The notes under the pieces: generated by a model | What the model saw: only the letters and a program-made list of their open reading frames with translations | Databases searched by the model: none | What the model was told of the DNA's origin: nothing | From: a virus | Direction: 5' to 3' (one strand) | IMG/VR virus record: IMGVR_UViG_3300035016_000036 | Span: 1-43,908 of that record | Length of the DNA: 43,908 bases | Program-made: the position numbers and the translations under genes | In this document: positions 1,025 through 43,800 of the stretch, piece after piece | Layout: the number at the start of each line of letters is the position of its first letter | How positions within the stretch are numbered: the stretch's first letter is position 1

Positions 1025-1297
1025 CTAGACGGTGACGCCGTTGCCGAAACGCTTCTCCACAAGAAGGAGAATGTCGGACCGGGCGAATGAAGACTCGTAC
1101 GTCCTGGGTTCCGTTCCGAACGCGCGGCAGACCATTTCCTCTTCGTTCCTCGGCTGGAAGGTGAACTTCACCCGAAGACGCCCGCCTGCGATCCACATGC
1201 GGGTGATCGACTCGACCCCTAGCCCCTGTCGATCGCTGATTTCGTCTTTGACGATCTCCTCAAGCTGCTGGCGGTGTTCCTTGGTCATTCGCGGCAT
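1025..1297 (-). CDS. Hypothetical protein, 90 aa
   Basis: I do not recognise this family. The protein is charged, with an acidic/basic N-terminal helix (residues 1-25) followed by predicted beta strands (GGRLRVKFTF) and a VEKRFGNG end. It is the last gene of the leftward operon, 8 bases before the terminator hairpin, so expression with the HTH/excisionase-like gene upstream is likely. A role in integration/excision control is only a guess from position. Confidence 0.6.
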   Translation of the reverse strand: MPRMTKEHRQQLEEIVKDEISDRQGLGVESITRMWIAGGRLRVKFTFQPRNEEEMVCRAFGTEPRTYESSFARSDILLLVEKRFGNGVTV

Positions 1298-1354
1298 GTC
1301 TGAGACTCCGGAAGAGGGGAAAGAAACCCCGGCGGTCCCTGCCGGGGCAGTCGA

Positions 1355-1579
1355 CTAGACTTTGATGTGACGAAGGCGGGGGCGGGGCTGCTGTCTCCTG
1401 GCCGGGGATTCGCCCCGCTCCCGTTTCGTCTTTTCCAGAAAGTCGCTGAGTTGAGCCTCGCTTACGCGAAGTGCCCCGCCCAGCCGGTAATGCGAGATTG
1501 AGCCATCGGCCAATTTCGCGTAGACGCACGACTCACTGAGCGCGAGCCGCTGGGCTACCTGCCGCACGGTCAGGAGCAC
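1355..1579 (-). CDS. Helix-turn-helix excisionase/MerR-type DNA-binding protein
   Basis: This 74-residue protein starts with a compact winged-helix domain of the HTH_17/excisionase type. LLTVRQVAQRLALSESCVYAKL forms the helix-turn-helix, and HYRLGGALRVSEAQLSDFLEK forms the wing and last helix. The C-terminus is Arg-rich. Such proteins act as recombination directionality factors or local repressors. Being one gene from the integrase, it is the natural candidate for Xis. Its start overlaps the end of the upstream zinc-ribbon-like gene by 47 bases. Confidence 0.8.
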   Translation of the reverse strand: MLLTVRQVAQRLALSESCVYAKLADGSISHYRLGGALRVSEAQLSDFLEKTKRERGESPARRQQPRPRLRHIKV

Positions 1580-3596: not shown

Positions 3597-3660
3597 GGCT
3601 CTCCTTTGGTTGGGGGCAAAAGGGGGAGGAGGACGTCAGGGCATCCTCGCTCCGACTCTC

Positions 3661-3843
3661 TTAACGACCGAAGATCAGTCGCTTCCACAAAGGGCGTCGA
3701 GTTGCGTACCGGGCATCCTCAACAGCCGAGATGACTGATTGCGGATGATCCTTGATCTGCTGGCAAACGGCTTTATGAGCCGATGCTGGCGAATCAGCCT
3801 GAATGGTCAGGCAGTACACAAAGCGAATCCTGTAGAGAGTCAT
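3661..3843 (-). CDS. Hypothetical protein, 60 aa
   Basis: This small basic protein begins MTLYRIRFVYCLTIQADSPASAHKAV, which suggests a beta-alpha unit, and ends with RRPLWKRLIFGR. Its ATG overlaps the stop of the upstream 66-residue gene by 4 bases (ATGA), which supports translational coupling and reality. The family is unknown. Confidence 0.6.
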   Translation of the reverse strand: MTLYRIRFVYCLTIQADSPASAHKAVCQQIKDHPQSVISAVEDARYATRRPLWKRLIFGR

Positions 3844-4040
3844 GTGGAATGGGGAACGTCCTTTTTCCTGCTGGTTTTGAGATACAGTTCAGCAAACTGC
3901 TCGTCATGGCTTGCAAGAGCTTCCCAGACTCGCTCGATGCGCTCGAAAGCACGGTTGAGGAGAATGGCAGTTCTCATGCTCACCATGAAGGAAACGACTG
4001 CTGTTGAAGTCATCAGCAGCTCCGGCCAAGTGATTTCCAT
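3840..4040 (-). CDS. Small membrane-anchored coiled-coil protein, 66 aa
   Basis: An N-terminal hydrophobic stretch (residues 7-28) is followed by an amphipathic helix (LLNRAFERIERVWEALASHDEQFAELYLK) typical of short coiled coils. It overlaps the next gene by 4 bases (ATGA). A perfect 16-bp palindrome lies 23 bases upstream of its start. The function is unknown. Confidence 0.6.
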   Translation of the reverse strand: MEITWPELLMTSTAVVSFMVSMRTAILLNRAFERIERVWEALASHDEQFAELYLKTSRKKDVPHST

Positions 4041-4772: not shown

Positions 4773-6247
4773 AGCGACTCGTCTAACTCTACAGGAGTCT
4801 TGAATTCAGCCCTCTGTTGACTTTCCCTGATAGCCCGCTCCAGCTTCTTCTCAGCGAGTCCGGGGTATAAGCGTGCGGGCCACGGTTCGGGCAGCATTTG
4901 GACATACTCAGGGCTCTGGCTCACGTAGTCGGGCCGGACGATCATGCGGTAGCCCTTGCCCATGCCCATGAGCTTCTGAACCTCCAACTTGATCTGGTCG
5001 TCCAGACTGAAGAACTCCGGTCGCCTGTCGATGACGGGCTTATACTTCGCCCGCTCGGTGTTGGTCTCCGTTTCTGTTTCCTTGCTGCCGGACTTACTCT
5101 TGCCGGTTCTGGTCACGTTCTCCCATTTGTCGAAAACCATTCGCTCCGTCTCGTGAACATGCTTGACCTTCAGGGGGTCGAGTTTTCGAAAGGCGAGGGA
5201 TTTGCCTGCGTCGGTCCCAAGCTCGTCGTCGCCGGGGTTGTACCAGACCTTCTCCGGCGTGCAGGACTTGATCGTTTCCCACTGCTCGGGCGGACCGAAG
5301 TTTGAGTCCTGGTTGATGATCCAGCCTGCGAAACCCGTCTTGCGGAGTTCGCGGAGCATGTCCACTTCGTTAGGTCCGATGATGTCGGTGGCCCCGGCCT
5401 CTTCCCACACGACAACGACGGGAGTGGGCTTCCCCGTGCGAGTAAAGCGACGGCGGAGAACCTGATCGATCTGAAGATTCAGTGCTCCATAGACGGCAGT
5501 GACTGATTGCTTGGAGACGGTCCCGTCATCGCTTCCGTCCACGATGATGATCTGACGGTTGACGAGGGCCTGTTCAAGATCGAAGGAACCGTCGCACCGC
5601 TCGCGAAAGGCTGGGAGACCGAAAGTCTGACGAACGAGCCTCTTGATCGGCCCGATGGCATCTTCAAGCTGTTTGTCAGCGTTCTTGGCCTTCAGCCGTC
5701 GAAGGTCCGACATTCGTTCACGGACTTCCTCGTCGGTGCAGCCCTCGATGAGCCTCTGGCATATGGGGTGGCTGAAACGCATTGCATACGGGAGTAGGGA
5801 CAGAGGCATCGGCTCGCGCTGGAAAAGCATCAGTCGGATTACGATGTCCGCTCCTTCCGACATCGTGGGCATGGAATGCGGATCTCCCTCTCTGCGGCTC
5901 GCTCGCCACATGAGGTCGATTAAGCTCATGATCCGTTTAGTGTTCTCGCTCTCTCTTTTAAGGAAGTGTTCTTCGACAGACTGCGTGAGCTTGAAACCCG
6001 CGAGGATTCGGTCGAACGAGGAGAGGCGGTCGTACAAGAGGCGATTCTGCATCCCCCGGCTAACGAGCTGGAGCGCGAAGTTTTCGGCAAGGAGGCCGTG
6101 CGGGTCCATCACGATCATGGCGCTGTCGCGGGCTTCGGCGACGGCCGTCATATCGCTCAAAGAACCCAGCGATTTGCCCGATCCACTCGACCCGATGATG
6201 AGCCTGCTGAATCGGCTCACAGCGTCTGCGAAGAAGGCGGGAGACAT
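4622..6247 (-). CDS. VirD4/TraD/HerA-like DNA-translocating ATPase
   Basis: This 541-residue P-loop ATPase has Walker A GSSGSGKS at residues 19-26, a following VMDPHG motif, Walker B VVVVWEEA at 277-284 and a sensor-like NQD at 312-314. This arrangement matches type IV coupling proteins and HerA-type ATPases, which pump DNA at a membrane pore. It lacks the N-terminal membrane anchor of VirD4, but several small membrane proteins are encoded next to it. The ATG at 6247 places Walker A close to the N-terminus as usual; the frame is open to 6469 but that extension reads as Arg/Pro-rich noise. The C-terminal 50 residues are Ser/Thr/Asn/Lys-rich and overlap the next gene. A coupling-type ATPase is unexpected in a siphovirus that has its own terminase. 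Confidence 0.8.
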   Translation of the reverse strand: MSPAFFADAVSRFSRLIIGSSGSGKSLGSLSDMTAVAEARDSAMIVMDPHGLLAENFALQLVSRGMQNRLLYDRLSSFDRILAGFKLTQSVEEHFLKRESENTKRIMSLIDLMWRASRREGDPHSMPTMSEGADIVIRLMLFQREPMPLSLLPYAMRFSHPICQRLIEGCTDEEVRERMSDLRRLKAKNADKQLEDAIGPIKRLVRQTFGLPAFRERCDGSFDLEQALVNRQIIIVDGSDDGTVSKQSVTAVYGALNLQIDQVLRRRFTRTGKPTPVVVVWEEAGATDIIGPNEVDMLRELRKTGFAGWIINQDSNFGPPEQWETIKSCTPEKVWYNPGDDELGTDAGKSLAFRKLDPLKVKHVHETERMVFDKWENVTRTGKSKSGSKETETETNTERAKYKPVIDRRPEFFSLDDQIKLEVQKLMGMGKGYRMIVRPDYVSQSPEYVQMLPEPWPARLYPGLAEKKLERAIRESQQRAEFKTPVELDESLWQSTTTSSHENATSNETNSSTFHPLPQNNRSKQASTPQPRKRGKGTTRR

Positions 6248-7318: not shown

Positions 7319-7645
7319 TCATCGCTTCGCCTGGACTTCGCAGATGTAGGCGTGAGCTTGGAGCATGAGCGAGATCAGGACCGGAACGTCGTCGCTGCGG
7401 AAGAAGGTGGTGGACTTGTACTCCTCGTCCTGACGCCACGTTCTCTTGCACGAAACTGCGTACGCTACAAATTGTCCATCCTGCGCCTCGTTGACGAGAC
7501 GCTCGAACACGGCCACTTCGATGTTGGCCGAGCCCGTCCATGCCTTCCGTGACCAGATTGGCGGATTTCCCTTCTCCTCCGCCGTACGGCCGTTGCCGTT
7601 CCTAGACGGCGAGGATGCCGTCTGGTTCCCTCTTGAACGCGCCAT
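7319..7645 (-). CDS. PC4-like (transcriptional coactivator p15-like) nucleic-acid-binding protein
   Basis: After a Ser/Arg-rich, probably disordered N-terminus, residues 32-108 give a single domain: a run of beta strands (ANIEVAVFERL, FVAYAVSCKRTW, EEYKSTTFF) and a last helix (SDDVPVLISLMLQAHAYICE). This matches small bacterial PC4-like proteins that I know as frequent in Planctomycetota and that are thought to bind single-stranded DNA. It follows the DUF932 gene with a 44-base overlap and ends before a terminator. An SSB-like role is inference. Confidence 0.55.
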   Translation of the reverse strand: MARSRGNQTASSPSRNGNGRTAEEKGNPPIWSRKAWTGSANIEVAVFERLVNEAQDGQFVAYAVSCKRTWRQDEEYKSTTFFRSDDVPVLISLMLQAHAYICEVQAKR

Positions 7646-8384
7646 CGATGATGTCCTCCGGTGGCTTCAGGAGAAGCCGTTGAAGTTGGATCGTTTCAGA
7701 CGCCGCCCGCGCGGGCTGGGACATCTGACGATCCTTCAGAACCTCGGTGAAGGCGTTCAGAAGGGAGAACGCCGTACGGGGGGCGAACTCCTCATGCCTG
7801 GGCTTCCGCCATTCGGCGATCACCTTCGGCAGAAGTCGCCATCCCACGATCCCCCGCTCCGCAGAGAGAAGCAGAAGAGAATTAGCCGCGTCCTCGCTGA
7901 GCGAAAGGCTCTGAAGCCTCTCGATCCGCTCCGCCGCCACGCTGGCGTATTGACGTAGGCCGAGCACCGCCCGCGAGAGCGCATCGTTGAATCTCCGTTC
8001 GCCGTTACGAGTGTGCTTGCGGGCGATGACGACCTCGGACGAGAACGCTCCGTTGTCGCATACGAAAATTCTTTCGCCCGCCGCGAAGCCGATGGGCATG
8101 GTCTGATCGGTGCTATTGCGAATGCCGATCATGAGAGAGACGCCATCAGCGACCGAGGTGTGCAGATCCAGCGTTCCGAAGAAACGATGGTTGTCCGCAG
8201 ACAGGCCGAGTTGCTGGCGAGCGATGTCATAGCCGGACGCCTGGAGCGTTTCGGCCACGCGGCTGAGCACCGTTGAATGCTTCAGCGGGAACCAAGAGGC
8301 AGTTGCCTCCGGCGCTTCGACAGAATCGAGTTCATCGAACTCGACCATACGAGCACCACGATGGAGCATCAGGGAAGAACCCAC
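7602..8384 (-). CDS. DUF932 family phage/plasmid protein
   Basis: The 260-residue protein fits the DUF932 (phage/plasmid-like) family. Recognisable segments are MIGIRNSTDQTMPIGFAAGE, then RIFVCDNGAFS and the following RKHT. The family is common on phages and plasmids but its biochemical role is unknown. I place the start at the GTG at 8384 because AGGAGG (8391-8396) lies 6 bases upstream; the longer ATG frame lacks a binding site and would include this site in its coding sequence. A TTGCGC promoter-like element and a 12-bp palindrome lie upstream. Confidence 0.8.
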   Translation of the reverse strand: MGSSLMLHRGARMVEFDELDSVEAPEATASWFPLKHSTVLSRVAETLQASGYDIARQQLGLSADNHRFFGTLDLHTSVADGVSLMIGIRNSTDQTMPIGFAAGERIFVCDNGAFSSEVVIARKHTRNGERRFNDALSRAVLGLRQYASVAAERIERLQSLSLSEDAANSLLLLSAERGIVGWRLLPKVIAEWRKPRHEEFAPRTAFSLLNAFTEVLKDRQMSQPARAASETIQLQRLLLKPPEDIIDGAFKREPDGILAV

Positions 8385-32984: not shown

Positions 32985-33422
32985 ATGCTGACCGATAGCG
33001 ATGTTGTCCGACTACTCGACCTCGTCAAAAGGTTCGTCGATGCGTCAACCATAGACTTTCCTGCCGCCGGTAGTTCACTGGAACGGGAAGTCCTCTCTGA
33101 AGACGGCCATGAGTCATTCCTGATCGACGTAAACCGCAAGGGAAAGGTGAAACCCACGAAGTGCACCTTTCAGGAACGCTACGCGATGACGGACATTCTG
33201 TATCGCTTGGACATCGACGGCCCTCCGCACACGAACCCTGACGGCATGGATGTGCCTTGCCCGCACCTGCACGTTTATCGTCAAGGCTTCGCGGATAAGT
33301 GGGCGTTTCCCATCGATCCGAGTGAGTTCACAGACACGTCAAACCTGCTGCGGACCTTCCGGCAATTCTTAACACGGTGCAACGTCTACGACGTCCCTGA
33401 TATTCAAAGCTCGTTGACATGA
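32985..33422 (+). CDS. DUF6978-like protein, first gene of a two-gene cassette
   Basis: The 145-residue protein matches what I know as DUF6978: LLDLVKRFVDASTIDFPAAG, then ESFLIDVNRKGKVKPTKCTF, LYRLDIDGPPHTNPDG and CPHLHVYRQGFADKWA. The DIDGPPHxNPDG...PHLH histidines could bind metal, but no activity is known. A TAAAAT -10-like box stands at 32941-32946. Its stop overlaps the start of the DUF1828/DUF1829 gene by 4 bases. The cassette is inverted relative to the late genes around it, like a moron. Confidence 0.7.
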   Translation: MLTDSDVVRLLDLVKRFVDASTIDFPAAGSSLEREVLSEDGHESFLIDVNRKGKVKPTKCTFQERYAMTDILYRLDIDGPPHTNPDGMDVPCPHLHVYRQGFADKWAFPIDPSEFTDTSNLLRTFRQFLTRCNVYDVPDIQSSLT

Positions 33423-34186
33423 ATCCAGAGTACGAGAACTTGGTTGAGTCGTACGTGCAATGGCTCCGCAACCGTACTCAGCTTTCGGATGTGGACGGCG
33501 TATGCGAGATCACGACTCCGTTTACCGATCGCCACAACGACAGAATCCAGATTTATGTGGAGCCAATCAAAAGCGGCGGATACGAACTGCATGACGACGG
33601 GTACACACTCTCAGACTTGGAGTTATCGGGGTGCGGCCTCACTACCTTGAACCGCCATCAAATGCTCCATGTGATCCTGAATGGGCATGGAGTAAAGGTA
33701 TCGAAAGATGTCTTATCGATTGAAGCGACGCGCGACAATTTCCCTCAGCGGAAGCACGCACTGCTGCAAGCAATTCTCACCGTCAACGACATGTTCATGA
33801 CGGCGAAACACCAAGTGGCTCGATTTTTCTTGGAAGATGTGTCCAACTTCTTGGACGCTAACGAAGTGCGTTACATCCGCAACGTCGTCTTCAACGGAGG
33901 AAGCGGGTTTCCGCATAAATTCGATTTCGTCATTCCACGCTCCTCGAAGCAGCCGGAGCGGGCTCTGCGAGTCATTAACAATCCCAACAAGGATACGGCC
34001 TCAAATCTCTTGTTCGCCTGGATGGATACAAGAGAGAGCAGACCGAAAGACTCGCAGGTCTACGCCATCTTGAACGACGTTGATCGGCCACTCAAACCGG
34101 ATGTGGTCGATGCCTTCCGACGCTACGAGGTTCGGACGGTCCTGTGGAGCCAGCGGGAAGAATACGCTCAGGCTCTAGTCGCGTAG
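33419..34186 (+). CDS. DUF1828/DUF1829 protein, partner of the DUF6978 gene
   Basis: The 255-residue protein has a DUF1828 domain (about 25-120: EITTPFTDRHNDRIQIYVEP, YELHDDGYTLSDLELSG) and a DUF1829 domain (about 130-250: FLDANEVRYIRNVVFNGGSG, FDFVIPRSSKQPERALRVIN). The second part resembles nuclease-like folds with acidic residues, but no catalytic site is proven. DUF1828/1829 proteins are common on mobile elements next to DUF6978-type partners, which makes a toxin-antitoxin or defence role possible; this is inference. Confidence 0.75.
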   Translation: MNPEYENLVESYVQWLRNRTQLSDVDGVCEITTPFTDRHNDRIQIYVEPIKSGGYELHDDGYTLSDLELSGCGLTTLNRHQMLHVILNGHGVKVSKDVLSIEATRDNFPQRKHALLQAILTVNDMFMTAKHQVARFFLEDVSNFLDANEVRYIRNVVFNGGSGFPHKFDFVIPRSSKQPERALRVINNPNKDTASNLLFAWMDTRESRPKDSQVYAILNDVDRPLKPDVVDAFRRYEVRTVLWSQREEYAQALVA

Positions 34187-34671: not shown

Positions 34672-34854
34672 ATGAACGAACCGCAGAAGCGTTTCGACGA
34701 CATCAGCCGCGAACTCTACGTCCTCTGGGCTGCCAAAGGCTGCCCGGACGATGCGGACGAACGCAATTCGCCGCGAGAGCTAGAGTTGCTCGAAGAGCTG
34801 GACCGCCTCGAATTCGAGGACGGTCTGGAATGGTTCAGACAGCGGTACGTTTAG
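34672..34854 (+). CDS. Small acidic helical protein, 60 aa
   Basis: A short rightward gene encoding an acidic, Leu/Glu-rich helical protein (RELELLEELDRLEFEDGLEWF). It is preceded by a six-codon mini-ORF (MSKKNR, start 34655) that has the GGGAAGGGG ribosome site and whose stop overlaps the ATG (ATGA), so translation may be coupled. It overlaps the convergent methyltransferase end by 4 bases. Confidence 0.55.
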   Translation: MNEPQKRFDDISRELYVLWAAKGCPDDADERNSPRELELLEELDRLEFEDGLEWFRQRYV

Positions 34855-36560
34855 TCGAAGAGCGGCTTGGAGCGCGTGGTCTTCTCTTTCTTGGCGGGTT
34901 TGAAGTTCACGTCGGGAACGTAGTCGGGGTGCTCTGCCCGCTGGCTGTGGTTGAGAAGCCCCTCGATGGTAAGAATCTGCACGCGGGGGAACTTCAGAAT
35001 GCCCTCTGGTCCCGCTTCATAGATTCCCGCCGCTGCGGCGTCTTTCTTCATCCCGGCAGTCGGCTCGTTGAGGGAGATCAACACGGCGATCTCGGCCCCC
35101 TCACGCGTGCGGACGCTGTTCAACGCCCGCACGTCGTCCGCTTTGAGCTTCCCGCCTTTGACACTGACGATGATCTTTTGGGCCGGGCCGGTGATGTCGT
35201 GGAAGAACTTGATGGCGTCGATGCCCGTGTCTGCGCCCTTTTTCTTCTTCTTGAACGGCTGGGCCTTGATGAGTTTGACGGCCCACCACTGGAATTGGTA
35301 CTTGTCGCGCAGCGCGAGGTTCCGAGCCCCCTCCAGATCCGTGGGGGTGCCGATCACGTCGTACTTACACGACCCCTGAAAGGCTTTATTGAGTCGGTCC
35401 TCGATAGTGGCGATGGCGAGTGTGGTGATGTCGATGCCGAGCCATTGTCTGCCAAGCTTCTGCGACGCATGAACGGCGGTCCCGCAACCGCAGAACGGAT
35501 CTAGAACCACGTCCCCCTCGTTACTGCTGGACAAGATGATTCTTTCCAGAAGGGCAACGGGCTTCTGGGTGTCGTAGCCGAGATACTCAGCTCCCTTGGC
35601 AGGTTGGATGTCCTGCCAGTCGTTCTGAAGGGGGATACCGGGCATTTCGTCGGCGTACTGGATGATGCGAGGCATGCCCGTGCTGCGGTGGCGGAGCTTG
35701 CCCTGCAAGGCGAAGTCCACCATGTTCTGTTTCGAGTATGCCCAGTAGCGTCCCGTGTAGGGAAAGACGCCTTTGTACTCGTAACCCTTGACGGGCTTCA
35801 GGTGCTCGTCCTTGAGGTCTGCTTCCCAGCGGGCTTTGGGCTTGAGCTGTCGCTTCACACGCCACTCGTAGCTGACGTCTCCGCCATCTTTATTCGCCGT
35901 GGGGTCCGTCTCTTTGAACCGGCGGCCGTCTTTCGCCTTGTGTTTGTACTCGCTTTCGAGATACGCGGCGGTGTAGGGTGTGTATTGCCAGTTCCACGTC
36001 CATTCCTTCTTCGACTTGGTGTAGAAGAAGATGATGTCGCGGACGTTGCCTGGTTGCTTCCGCCCCTGTTTTGCGTCGTTGTGCGCGGCGGAACGACGCC
36101 AGTTGATCTCTGTCTTGTAGTTCAGCTTCCCAAATACGCCGTCGAGAATGATCTTCAGGAAGTGTGAGGCTGTTGGATCGCAATGGAGGTAGAGCGAGCC
36201 TGTTGGCTTCAGGACTCGATGTAGCTCCAGCAGACGGTTGGCCATCATCACGAGATAGGCCATCATGTCGTTCTCTTTGAGAAACGACCGAAGAGCCTGC
36301 ATGATCTCGGCAACGTCGGTGTTGGGCTGCTTGAGTAACTCGTTGTATTCCAGCTCCGCCTGCGGTCCCCAGTGCCACGTGTCGAGAAACGCCGTGACCT
36401 GGGCCTCGCTCTGTGTCCCTTTCGGGCCTCTGAAGAGCAGGTTGTAGTTGCGTTTGGAGTTAAACGGCGGATCGAGATAGATCAGGTCAACCGACTCGTC
36501 TTTGAACTCGTCGCTGCGGAGGACTTCAAGGTTGTCTCCGAAGAAAAGCTTGTTCGCCAC
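34851..36560 (-). CDS. DNA methyltransferase fused to an Mrr-like nuclease domain
   Basis: The 569-residue protein (from GTG 36560, with GGAG 5 bases upstream) has a beta-class adenine/cytosine-N4 methyltransferase. Motif IV is DPPFN (residues 30-34); then come a GxG-type region, QKPVALLERII (motif X-like) and the AdoMet motif DPFCGCGT (354-361). Residues about 440-525 add a PD-(D/E)XK/Mrr-like domain with GADTGID (Asp448) and IVSVKGGK (Lys near 468), then an AEIAVLISLNEP core. It may both modify and cut DNA, or use the nuclease part only for recognition. No separate restriction gene is seen. The frame is open to 36626, but that start lacks a ribosome site. Confidence 0.85.
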   Translation of the reverse strand: MANKLFFGDNLEVLRSDEFKDESVDLIYLDPPFNSKRNYNLLFRGPKGTQSEAQVTAFLDTWHWGPQAELEYNELLKQPNTDVAEIMQALRSFLKENDMMAYLVMMANRLLELHRVLKPTGSLYLHCDPTASHFLKIILDGVFGKLNYKTEINWRRSAAHNDAKQGRKQPGNVRDIIFFYTKSKKEWTWNWQYTPYTAAYLESEYKHKAKDGRRFKETDPTANKDGGDVSYEWRVKRQLKPKARWEADLKDEHLKPVKGYEYKGVFPYTGRYWAYSKQNMVDFALQGKLRHRSTGMPRIIQYADEMPGIPLQNDWQDIQPAKGAEYLGYDTQKPVALLERIILSSSNEGDVVLDPFCGCGTAVHASQKLGRQWLGIDITTLAIATIEDRLNKAFQGSCKYDVIGTPTDLEGARNLALRDKYQFQWWAVKLIKAQPFKKKKKGADTGIDAIKFFHDITGPAQKIIVSVKGGKLKADDVRALNSVRTREGAEIAVLISLNEPTAGMKKDAAAAGIYEAGPEGILKFPRVQILTIEGLLNHSQRAEHPDYVPDVNFKPAKKEKTTRSKPLFD

Positions 36561-36662
36561 GGCTGCTCCAATCCCTAGAGGTCCAAACGAACGGGTGAAG
36601 GTAGCCTCAGCCCTCGGACGGGTCAAGTTCGCGGCGCATCCCGCACCAGCGTCAGAGCCCGC

Positions 36663-37179: not shown

Positions 37180-37377
37180 TCACCAGCTACAGAACGGGAA
37201 AGCAAGGTGCTGGCACGCGCAATGCGAGCGAACCACTTCTTTGGCTATCGGGCGTTCCTCGTGCATGGCTCTGTTCTTGCACTGGTAGTACTCCCCGTAC
37301 CGGGAGACGAGCTGCCACGAGAAGAGCGCGGCAAAGAAGGTCAGCACGAGCCCGGCGATGGGAACGGCCTTCCTCAC
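37180..37377 (-). CDS. Small membrane protein, 65 aa
   Basis: One hydrophobic segment (residues 3-25, AVPIAGLVLTFFAALFSWQL) is followed by a short polar, Cys/His-containing tail. It overlaps the HNH-AP2 gene end by 4 bases, supporting coupled translation. The function is unknown. Confidence 0.5.
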   Translation of the reverse strand: MRKAVPIAGLVLTFFAALFSWQLVSRYGEYYQCKNRAMHEERPIAKEVVRSHCACQHLAFPFCSW

Positions 37378-37862
37378 GCTGCGATGTCGTTTGGTAGCGC
37401 GAACTCCCCAAAGTGCTTCTTTGCCGCGCGGTTATAAGTCAGAGCCGCCTCGTTCTCAGTGTCGAAATATCCGAGGTGCTTGAACTTCGTTTGCACCACG
37501 ATATACGCCCTCCACTTACCAGCGCGGGAGCTCCACGAAACTCCCTTGTATCTCGACGACCATGTGCCACGTTGCTTGCAGTGATTACTGGCGTTCTGAG
37601 AGGAAGAGCATGGGCGGAGGTTCTGGCGGCGATTATCAAGGCTGTTCCGGTTCGCATGATCGACGTGTGACCCCTTCGGGGCACCGGTGATCTGTCGGTG
37701 CATGAGCACCGCCCGCTGCTTTCCGTCCCTCGTGACGAGCCTGACGGCGTACGCATTGCCTGTCTTAGTCACCATAACGTGCCACTTGTGACGTGAAAGA
37801 CTCTCGTAGTCCTCATCGTCCACAATCGTGACATAGCCTTTGGTGAGGGCGATCTGCTTCAC
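37374..37862 (-). CDS. HNH-AP2 homing-type endonuclease
   Basis: The 162-residue protein has an HNH domain (residues 50-95) with MHRQITGAPKGSHVDHANRN (His66, Asp68, His69) and NRRQNLRPCSSSQNASN, then an AP2 DNA-binding domain (about 102-157: RYKGVSWSSRAGKWRAYIVV, HLGYFDTENEAALTYNRAAK). This pair is typical of free-standing homing endonucleases in phages, which cut intronless copies of a target and spread by repair. Confidence 0.9.
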   Translation of the reverse strand: MKQIALTKGYVTIVDDEDYESLSRHKWHVMVTKTGNAYAVRLVTRDGKQRAVLMHRQITGAPKGSHVDHANRNSLDNRRQNLRPCSSSQNASNHCKQRGTWSSRYKGVSWSSRAGKWRAYIVVQTKFKHLGYFDTENEAALTYNRAAKKHFGEFALPNDIAA

Positions 37863-40221: not shown

Positions 40222-40713
40222 CTAACCTTGGCCACGATGCGGCACCGCTGGAGCTGCCTGCGTAGTCTTGGCCGCATCCTGGTGGTGTTTCGACCAGGAT
40301 TCACCGGAGGCGCGAAGGATGTCCTGCATCCGCTCAAAGCACTGGTCTAATCCCTCGCTATCGCCTGCGGGAAGTGCTTGGTACTCCAACTCCCGCTTAA
40401 CGTCCAACAACAGGTACTCCGTCCTCCGCTCCGTATGCCACTTGTCGGCGGGTTTCCGCATGCCCTCGACCGATGCGACTGCCCCGATCGCTGCCGTGGT
40501 AAAGACGAGGAAGACATTCAGCACCTTCTGCGAAGGACCCTCTAGTGCCACGGCCACCGACGCGAGAACGGTTGAAACAACAGTAAGGACAAAGATTGAG
40601 TACCGGCACCAGTTGAAGACCTTCTTGTGCTTGTTGGCTTCCTTTCGGAACCACTTGATGCTGTCGTCGAGCGTTTTAACGAGGTAGTCGTGGCGGCTGA
40701 CTGGTTCGCTCAA
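40222..40713 (-). CDS. SLATT/DUF4231-like two-TM protein
   Basis: The 163-residue protein starts with a charged helix (LDDSIKWFRKEANKHKKVFN), then has two membrane segments (about 37-57 and 63-82) and a helical region (KWHTERRTEYLLLDVKRELE). This matches the SLATT/DUF4231 pattern of two-TM effectors predicted to form pores in nucleotide-activated defence systems. No SMODS or SLOG partner is seen, so the trigger is unknown. It overlaps the RusA-like gene end by 38 bases. Confidence 0.65.
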   Translation of the reverse strand: MSEPVSRHDYLVKTLDDSIKWFRKEANKHKKVFNWCRYSIFVLTVVSTVLASVAVALEGPSQKVLNVFLVFTTAAIGAVASVEGMRKPADKWHTERRTEYLLLDVKRELEYQALPAGDSEGLDQCFERMQDILRASGESWSKHHQDAAKTTQAAPAVPHRGQG

Positions 40714-42449: not shown

Positions 42450-42590
42450 ATGTACCACTGCCCCATCTGCGACAAGATTGTCCCTGAGAATCGCCCCACG
42501 AGTGCGGACGGTCAGCGCGACTGCTACTGCTCGGACGCCTGCTACAACGAAGGCCGCGAGATGCCGTACGATGCTCCCATCCCCGCCTAA
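42450..42590 (+). CDS. Small zinc-finger-like protein, 46 aa
   Basis: MYHCPICDKIVPENRPTSAD, then CYCSDACYNEGRE: five cysteines (CPIC ... CYC ... C) predict one zinc site in a treble-clef-like fold. It overlaps the next start (TAATG). Confidence 0.65.
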   Translation: MYHCPICDKIVPENRPTSADGQRDCYCSDACYNEGREMPYDAPIPA

Positions 42591-43111
42591 TGCACTCTCT
42601 CATTCTCATCAAAGACGCCCCCGGCTACGGCAAGAAGTTCGACCGCATCGACGTCGATCACGAGACGATGCTCGACCTGCTCTCGAAGCGTCTGGCCAAG
42701 TGCGACACCCCCTTGGTACGCAAGCAACTGGGACTGGCTGTAGATTCTTCCCCCTCGTCCATGACTCACTCTGAAAAGCTCGAAGCGGTACGGCAGAAGT
42801 GCGTAGAGGCGAACCCAGCGATTGAAAAGCACACCTGTTGCGAATGCGACGCCCTGCTAGGTGAGTTCGTCCCCTGCCCAGATTGCGGAAGCGAAAACAG
42901 CTTCATGGACGTGCGGGAGCCACGCCTCGCGGACATGCTGCTGGCCTACCAGCATGCAAAGGAGCGGCAAGGGAACTGGAACGATAACGACTGGCGAGTG
43001 TTTATCTACCCGCTGCTCCAAGCCGTCGGCGGATGGAACCTCTCTAAAGACTCTCTCGACGCCCAGAGCCCCGAAACGATCTCGTTCCTCTACGACCTTC
43101 TCCATGACTGA
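42590..43111 (+). CDS. Zinc-ribbon-containing protein, 173 aa
   Basis: The N-terminal half is helical (ETMLDLLSKRLAKCDTPLVR, SEKLEAVRQKCVEANPAIEK). A CCECDALLGEFVPCPDCGSE zinc ribbon sits at about residues 83-102, and a helical C-terminus follows (LADMLLAYQHAKERQGNWND). The family is unknown. It is coupled to the genes on both sides by short overlaps. Confidence 0.65.
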   Translation: MHSLILIKDAPGYGKKFDRIDVDHETMLDLLSKRLAKCDTPLVRKQLGLAVDSSPSSMTHSEKLEAVRQKCVEANPAIEKHTCCECDALLGEFVPCPDCGSENSFMDVREPRLADMLLAYQHAKERQGNWNDNDWRVFIYPLLQAVGGWNLSKDSLDAQSPETISFLYDLLHD

Positions 43112-43223
43112 GCACGACCCGCTGACGGAGGCAGACCGCCAGAGACTCGAAGCTCTCCGCCGAGCAATCCAGTACCACCTCGCGCATCCCGATCCTTCCG
43201 AGTCTCGAAGCGTGGACGAGTGA
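43104..43223 (+). CDS. Small acidic helical protein, 39 aa
   Basis: The ORF encodes MTEHDPLTEADRQRLEALRR, then AIQYHLAHPDPSESRSVDE, a helix with an acidic tail. It overlaps the upstream gene by 8 bases. The family is unknown. Confidence 0.5.
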   Translation: MTEHDPLTEADRQRLEALRRAIQYHLAHPDPSESRSVDE

Positions 43224-43256
43224 CCGTTCACGCTCCGGCCCTTGGCATCATCGGTA

Positions 43257-43389
43257 AGAGTGTCCCGTCGGGGGCGTGGCGTCTGCCAGAAAAGCGAGTG
43301 CGGTCAGCTGGATGCCTCGCGCGAAGACGGTCCGTTCCAATAAGGCATCCCCGCAGGTGCAATCCCTGCCGCCTCCGACCGGGCACTCT
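43257..43389 (+). ncRNA. Cloverleaf-like structured RNA closed by a 20-bp helix
   Basis: The segments 43257-43276 and 43370-43389 are complementary over 20 positions, with one mismatch and two G-U pairs. They enclose TGGC/GCCA (43277-43280 with 43285-43288), a perfect 7-bp stem (43310-43316 with 43344-43350) and GCAGG-TGCAATC-CCTGC (43353-43369). The last has the size of a tRNA T-arm (loop TGCAATC instead of TTCRANY) and abuts the closing helix without a gap, as in tRNA. No anticodon arm of normal form is visible and the helix is far too long for a tRNA. The strand is assigned by its rightward neighbours. Confidence 0.65.
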
Positions 43390-43405
43390 GAACTCGATCC
43401 CCTTT

Positions 43406-43465
43406 ACGCGGCCTTCCGGTCATAGGTGGGAAGGCACCCTATGAACGTACAACGGGAGGCCGTGT
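43406..43465 (+). ncRNA. Second stem-loop of the structured region
   Basis: A 9-bp stem with one G-U pair (43406-43414 with 43457-43465) encloses a perfect 7-bp stem (TCATAGG at 43420-43426 with CCTATGA at 43438-43444). An alternative pairing, 43411-43417 with 43429-43435, excludes both, which is the kind of mutually exclusive fold seen in regulatory RNAs. Confidence 0.55.
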
Positions 43466-43492
43466 ATGGCGGATCGGGAACACTATTGACTC

Positions 43493-43521
43493 TTGCGCGG
43501 AATGTCGTTCCGTGCTAGAAT
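43493..43521 (+). promoter_or_regulatory. Promoter-like element TTGCGC-17-TAGAAT with TGC extended -10
   Basis: TTGCGC (43493-43498) is followed after 17 bases by TAGAAT (43516-43521), directly preceded by TGC. It stands 32 bases before the 50-residue membrane gene and copies the layout of the element at 42302-42329. Confidence 0.55.
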
Positions 43522-43552
43522 GAGAGCACATACAAACTTCCCTTCTCGTTCT

Positions 43553-43705
43553 ATGTTCTCTTCTCTCATCCGAGCCCTTCGGGATAACCCTACGGTGCTC
43601 ATCCTCGGCGTCCTGTGTGTCGCCATCGCATTTCTGACGGGGCAGGCAACCGCTCACTTCGGGCTGGTGCCATTCGTATCCCCGTTCTTCTCCCCGCTCG
43701 TATGA
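43553..43705 (+). CDS. Small membrane protein, 50 aa
   Basis: The ORF begins MFSSLIRALRDNPTVLILGV and continues with LCVAIAFLTGQATAHFGLVP: one hydrophobic helix at about 14-33 and a short tail. It has a good promoter-like element upstream, and its stop overlaps the start of the next peptide (ATGA). The function is unknown. Confidence 0.6.
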   Translation: MFSSLIRALRDNPTVLILGVLCVAIAFLTGQATAHFGLVPFVSPFFSPLV

Positions 43706-43785
43706 CTGATCCGCTCGTGATCCTGCTCGGCATCGCTACGGTGATGCAGGGCGTGGCGATCATCCTCGTTCTGTACAAAGACTAA
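43702..43785 (+). CDS. 27-residue membrane peptide
   Basis: MTDPLVILLGIATVMQGVAI, then ILVLYKD: a single hydrophobic helix. It is coupled to the previous gene by an ATGA overlap. The pair may act together, but its function is unknown. Confidence 0.55.
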   Translation: MTDPLVILLGIATVMQGVAIILVLYKD

Positions 43786-43800
43786 GAACCGGACAAACAA

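Follow-up and report, generated by a model that had tools for sequence, protein, structure and literature searches.

A predicted structured segment in an intercistronic gap of a putative Planctomycetota phage, and a candidate three-way-junction RNA family with the same T-loop hairpin

What is the strongly folded sequence that occupies a non-coding gap near the right end of this virus record, and does it act as an RNA? An earlier note, made by reading the letters, had described it as a tRNA-like structured RNA that could be a phage small RNA, a tRNA-like decoy or the relic of an attachment site. The window, meaning the whole stretch of DNA that was analyzed, is the entire virus record (43,908 bases, linear). 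Its PHROG assignments include tape measure, portal and terminase large subunit, a siphophage-like gene set, and a tyrosine integrase gene (1-993, PF00589) opens the record, its ATG beginning at base 1. The two nearest integrases (65% and 46% identity) are found in Planctomycetota genomes, where an ordinary tRNA gene lies next to each, 150-200 bp upstream (tRNA-Arg ACG in L038; in L039 a tRNA called Ser-ACT). Because its integrase relatives reside in Planctomycetota genomes and adjoin tRNA genes, the record most likely comes from a temperate Planctomycetota phage and was cut off where the integrase begins. The phage's own attachment site would then lie to the left of base 1, outside the record, since the nearest integrases adjoin ordinary tRNA genes. 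Searching IMG/VR with the terminase and the integrase returned nothing usable, and the terminase recovered a single distant terminase from the Planctomycetota genomes.

Several other features of the record can be mentioned here. Three possible accessory or defence-type genes encode an N6/N4 methylase fused to an Mrr-like domain (34851-36626, - strand), a protein related to phage DUF1828 proteins (33419-34186, + strand) and a DUF4231/SLATT-like protein (40222-40713, - strand). A homing-endonuclease type HNH endonuclease with an AP2 domain is encoded at 37374-37862 (- strand). Shortly past the integrase gene, positions 1296-1450 (+ strand) also fold strongly (z -4.0 to -4.2; -83.9 kcal/mol for 161 nt).

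The non-coding gap is 329 bases long, as the earlier note had it: a small ORF ends at 43223, the next starts at 43553, and the genes on both sides are on the same (+) strand (Table 1). The 173-aa protein encoded upstream (42590-43111) belongs to no Pfam or PHROG family; it has no relative in 392 Planctomycetota genomes and only weak partial matches in IMG/VR. Between the RNA structure and the 43553 gene sits a promoter-like site with an operator-like dyad, GCGCGGAA-TGTCG-TTCCGTGC (43495-43515), placed between a weak -35 (TTGCGC) and a -10 (TAGAAT). This candidate promoter (43493-43521) is not among the listings of the promoter scan. On the 3' side of the dyad, two small hydrophobic ORFs overlap (43553-43705 and 43703-43786).

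Table 1. Features of the gap and its surroundings, and locations of the R3 family
Feature	Position	Strand	Basis or remark
Upstream gene pair (173 aa, 42590-43111; 39 aa, ATG at 43104)	42590..43223	+	no known family
Non-coding gap holding the structure	43224..43552	+	neither strand with a plausible gene
Domain 1: closing helix around four hairpins	43257..43389	+	p = 0.0015 per site vs shuffles, not significant window-wide
Hairpin 1, UGGC-GUCU-GCCA	43277..43288	+	MFE and centroid
Hairpin 2, weak, bulged	43293..43309	+	MFE and centroid
Hairpin 3, 8 bp GGATGCCT/AGGCATCC, 25-nt loop	43310..43350	+	MFE and centroid
T-loop-like hairpin GCAGG-UGCAAUC-CCUGC, 5 bp/7 nt, abuts closing helix	43353..43369	+	fold
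Domain 2, long hairpin, -50.9 kcal/mol; statistically strongest element	43393..43480	+	shuffles, window scan
Competing proximal pairing GCCUUCC (43411-43417)/GGGAAGG (43428-43434)	43410..43435	+	constrained fold
Possible weak promoter TTGCGC-17-TAGAAT, upstream of 43553 gene	43493..43521	+	sequence reading
Downstream 50-aa ORF, hydrophobic, membrane-peptide-like	43553..43705	+	no Pfam match
R3 family loci	L003, L004, L007, L011, L015, L016, L020, L021, L024, L025, L032-L034, L073-L087		
R3 copies in L082	5032-5082, 5305-5355, 5822-5871, 6350-6399		
Further R3 copies	L002:7158-7206, L009:6824-6873		

The fold consists of two adjacent domains. The closing helix of domain 1 (43257-43276/43370-43389) pairs 19 of its 20 positions, including two G·U pairs, with one C·C mismatch (43266/43380). 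The near-perfect 20-bp helix described earlier is therefore present, but it encloses four hairpins rather than three. The last hairpin does have the T-arm geometry claimed for it, with 5 bp, a 7-nt loop and no gap to the closing helix. Considered on its own, domain 1 is near the chance level. Equally good folds were obtained from 6 of 4,000 dinucleotide shuffles, the regression z is -3.3 and is bettered by 16 of the record's 2,504 windows, and a shuffled window contains on average 0.78 helices as good as the closing helix (21 of 40 shuffles had them).

The statistical significance sits in domain 2, not in the tRNA-like part. Shuffled versions of domain 2 average -29.8 ± 3.4 kcal/mol (z -6.3), and none of 20,000 reaches its energy (Table 1), the best (-49.2) falling 1.7 kcal/mol short; it also ranks first among the window's 88-nt stretches. 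Taken jointly, the domains (43254-43480) have a z of -5.5 to -5.6, are matched by none of 1,200 shuffles and rank first among 1,460 windows of 227 nt. The judgement that the fold is too regular for chance thus fails for domain 1 alone, where both shuffles and random helices come level, and holds better for domain 2 and for the pair. The mutually exclusive pairings attributed to the second stem-loop were recovered as well: GCCUUCC can take GGGAAGG as its partner in place of the distal GGGAGGC, an alternative that is 13 kcal/mol weaker (-38.0 vs -50.9 kcal/mol). Two coding stretches, 7561-7787 and 3601-3827, reach z values of -5.2 and -5.0, so fold energy alone is no proof of function. Raw stability is unexceptional, with a local fold (≤90 nt) below -48 kcal/mol in 24 of 24 block-shuffled genomes. 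Folding is stronger on the + strand (-116.7 kcal/mol) than on the - strand (-102.4 kcal/mol). The two long helices contain five G·U pairs and zero A·C oppositions, which as an argument about the strand is weak support because the pairs were picked on the + strand fold. The apical part of domain 2 also overlaps a 25-codon ORF (43441-43518; MNVQREAVYGGSGTLLTLARNVVPC), whose ATG is in the stem of the apical hairpin with an AAGG in and beside the loop; this could be a hidden translation start.

No relative of the element was found by any of the searches. With blastn, the element gave a single chance match among phages, no relative among plasmids and chance-level matches in 392 Planctomycetota genomes, and a pattern scan of IMG/VR for the apical 19-mer of domain 2 found none. 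Two single-sequence covariance models (R1 and R2), each run over 246 Planctomycetota genomes, likewise gave chance-level matches only. The best R1 match (L061; E 9.5e-4 in one genome) was rejected because the T hairpin is missing and many pairs are broken. We conclude that the element is an orphan with respect to IMG/VR, phages, plasmids and Planctomycetota genomes.

The T-loop hairpin alone has a wider distribution, its 17-mer occurring in 34 stretches of IMG/VR DNA. Some of these are tRNA T-arms, for instance that of a true phage tRNA-Arg (L005), others (L006, L022 and L031) fall inside coding sequence by chance, and 13 of the 34 trace to a single recurrent element. When this element was sought with a second scan and a covariance model, R3, the number of candidate matches rose to 59, spread over 28 loci, and the weakest are doubtful. 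The element folds as a three-way junction formed by a 4-5 bp helix (P1), a hairpin CCG-UNNAAG-CGG and a hairpin NNNNGG-UGCAA(A/U)C-CCNNNN. In the MAFFT alignment, 35 cells differ on both sides of a pair, where shuffles give 12.2 ± 2.9 and slid controls no more than 8; a wider, model-fitted alignment gives 138 vs 45. Compensatory changes are strong in P1. R3 copies, often 2-4 per contig, start at or next to a stop codon and precede the next start, with a second hairpin following. Synechococcus phage S-EIVl carries two copies (KJ410740.1, 43453-43502 and 43747-43796, - strand; 5705-5754 and 5999-6048 in L088), which end or separate small hypothetical genes that follow one another. None of the family's sites matches Rfam, and R3 looks like an undescribed intercistronic RNA family of uncultured phages. 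We consider it of more consequence than the window's orphan, being a covarying RNA that can be tested directly in a cultured cyanophage.

Two further observations concern the R3 loci. Just downstream of the three-way junction, L082:5305-5420, L011:9371-9480 and similar sites could form a pseudoknot, GCCUA-CAGCGGAGA-UAGGC, in which GCGG is able to pair with a following CCGC. L015 contains a Glutamine-II riboswitch (3889-3953, - strand; 52.6 bits), and the ORF for a short peptide that comes after it has its stop codon within the three-way-junction RNA.

How, then, should the structure in the window be read? Its T-loop hairpin stacks on the closing helix as a tRNA T-arm does on the acceptor, the identical T-arm 17-mer occurs in the true phage tRNA of L005, and RNase P processes the phage C4 and M3 RNAs (PMC11143913). 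A tRNA-like small RNA, either processed by RNase P or mimicking tRNA in the way of C4 antisense RNA or M3 RNA, is nevertheless unlikely. ARAGORN found no tRNA in the structure with default settings, introns and tmRNA mode, and with lowered thresholds and intron, tmRNA and mitochondrial modes gave just low-scoring candidates that we took as noise. Rfam (4,227 families) has nothing at the gathering threshold and, at E ≤ 5, only two implausible, far sub-threshold matches, neither of them to tRNA, tmRNA or C4; the earlier note was thus right that this does not match a normal tRNA, and right in assigning it to no riboswitch class. The acceptor end has no unpaired leader, and an anticodon-like 5-bp/7-nt arm is missing. 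Of the description as tRNA-like, the hairpin geometry survives; the likeness itself does not carry far, since it rests on one hairpin whose 17-mer also arises by chance in coding sequence. A cobalamin riboswitch was dropped on motif reading and the absent Rfam match, and an integron attC site on motif reading. An attachment-site relic, in which the T-arm and the 3' strand of the acceptor would have been copied from a host tRNA gene, is very improbable. The hairpin does lie on the strand expected for attR and toward the end opposite the integrase, and the related integrases adjoin tRNA genes. Against this, the identity check proposed earlier against host tRNA genes gave no match: the T-arm/acceptor 20-mer GGTGCAATCCCTGCCGCCTC occurs in 0 of 84,980 species genomes, and a pattern scan of IMG/VR viral contigs did not find it. 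The sequence preceding the hairpin shows nothing recognisable as the anticodon stem or variable loop of a tRNA, and the left end of the record is the integrase ATG, so the att core falls outside the record. It is just as hard to see in the window a diverged member of the R3 family of T-loop three-way-junction RNAs of cyanophage-like contigs. It shares the R3-type hairpin GG-UGCAA(A/U)C-CC, with the identical 17-mer, and its upstream GTCCGTT..ATAA..GGCAT resembles the family's GTCCGT-ATAAGCGGCAT. However, the P1 closing helix and the CCG/CGG hairpin were not found at family spacing, the R3 score of 21.3 bits comes from the 17-mer only and equals that of chance and coding loci (L006, L019, L022 and L035), and the upstream resemblance (p = 0.03-0.05) is scored equally by the non-member controls L008 and L022. 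Membership is largely refuted by these controls.

We favor, at a probability of roughly 0.42, a structured untranslated intercistronic segment whose duplexes would affect the stability or processing of a phage message. The segment would most likely be carried at the transcript 3' end of the gene pair 42590-43223. There exonucleases would be stopped by the domain 2 duplex, perhaps together with the domain 1 closing helix, or the duplexes would offer a site for a double-strand-specific RNase. In this way the structure would set the 42590-43223 message apart from the genes for small membrane peptides at 43553, which would have a promoter of their own. Also in favor of this reading are the same-strand genes on both sides, the first rank of the two-domain unit among 227-nt stretches and the promoter-like site with its dyad ahead of the next gene. 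The analysis shows that the fold exists, that it lies in non-coding sequence, that it favors the + strand and that domain 2 exceeds shuffled sequence; that the segment is transcribed, kept up by selection and active in processing or stability, we infer. Against the untranslated-segment reading, the promoter scan revealed no clear promoter for the RNA itself, there is no U-run terminator and no homologue, the phage's coding stretches fold nearly as strongly and domain 1 is within chance. A close rival, quite possible in itself, is that no RNA structure has been selected here, the gap being a GC-rich regulatory spacer in which domain 1 arose by chance and domain 2 is a functionless inverted repeat. 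Closing helices like that of domain 1 are expected by chance at this window size, its p value (Table 1) is given before correction, coding stretches show similar z values and no relatives were found. Yet domain 2 exceeds 20,000 shuffles, and both domains stand side by side in one non-coding gap, where jointly they come first in the window. A DNA-level element, whether a MITE-like insertion whose terminal repeats would be the 20-bp arms or a protein-binding region made of inverted repeats, is improbable: the arms at the ends of domain 1 are inverted and the gap is dyad-rich, but there is no second copy in the record, the 392 Planctomycetota genomes, phages or plasmids, no target-site duplication was seen in the flanks, and the exceptions to base pairing favor G·U on one strand. 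As a MITE or IS end it was dropped, in view of the missing copies and target-site duplication. We regard as slightly less probable still a self-standing two-domain phage RNA of ~225 nt, belonging to no described class, in which the T-loop hairpin on its long helix would serve as a tRNA-mimicking binding module. More generally, the phage small RNA suggested in the earlier note is conceivable. Returning to the untranslated segment, the structure is so far one orphan, probably among many structured phage intercistronic regions, and little follows from it.

Comparison with known systems shows both likenesses and differences. As in tRNA (RF00005), a 5-bp/7-nt hairpin of the T-loop type (UGCAA) stacks on a closing helix without a gap, but that helix runs 20 bp rather than the 7 bp of an acceptor, and the D and anticodon arms, an acceptor of tRNA length and the CCA are absent. 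The C4 antisense RNA of P1/P7 (RF01695) and the phage M3 RNA are also phage RNAs with tRNA-like parts, although the window gives no C4 match at E ≤ 5. R3 RNAs differ by their CCG/CGG hairpin and by a P1 at family distance, both lacking in the window, and are similar in having the same GCAGG-UGCAAUC-CCUGC hairpin beside a closing helix, in an intercistronic gap, with a second hairpin next to it. In T7 and other phages, intercistronic stem-loops are cut by RNase III or protect mRNA 3' ends. The multi-branched domain 1 is not typical of these stem-loops, but the window, like them, has a long imperfect duplex between gene groups on the same strand.
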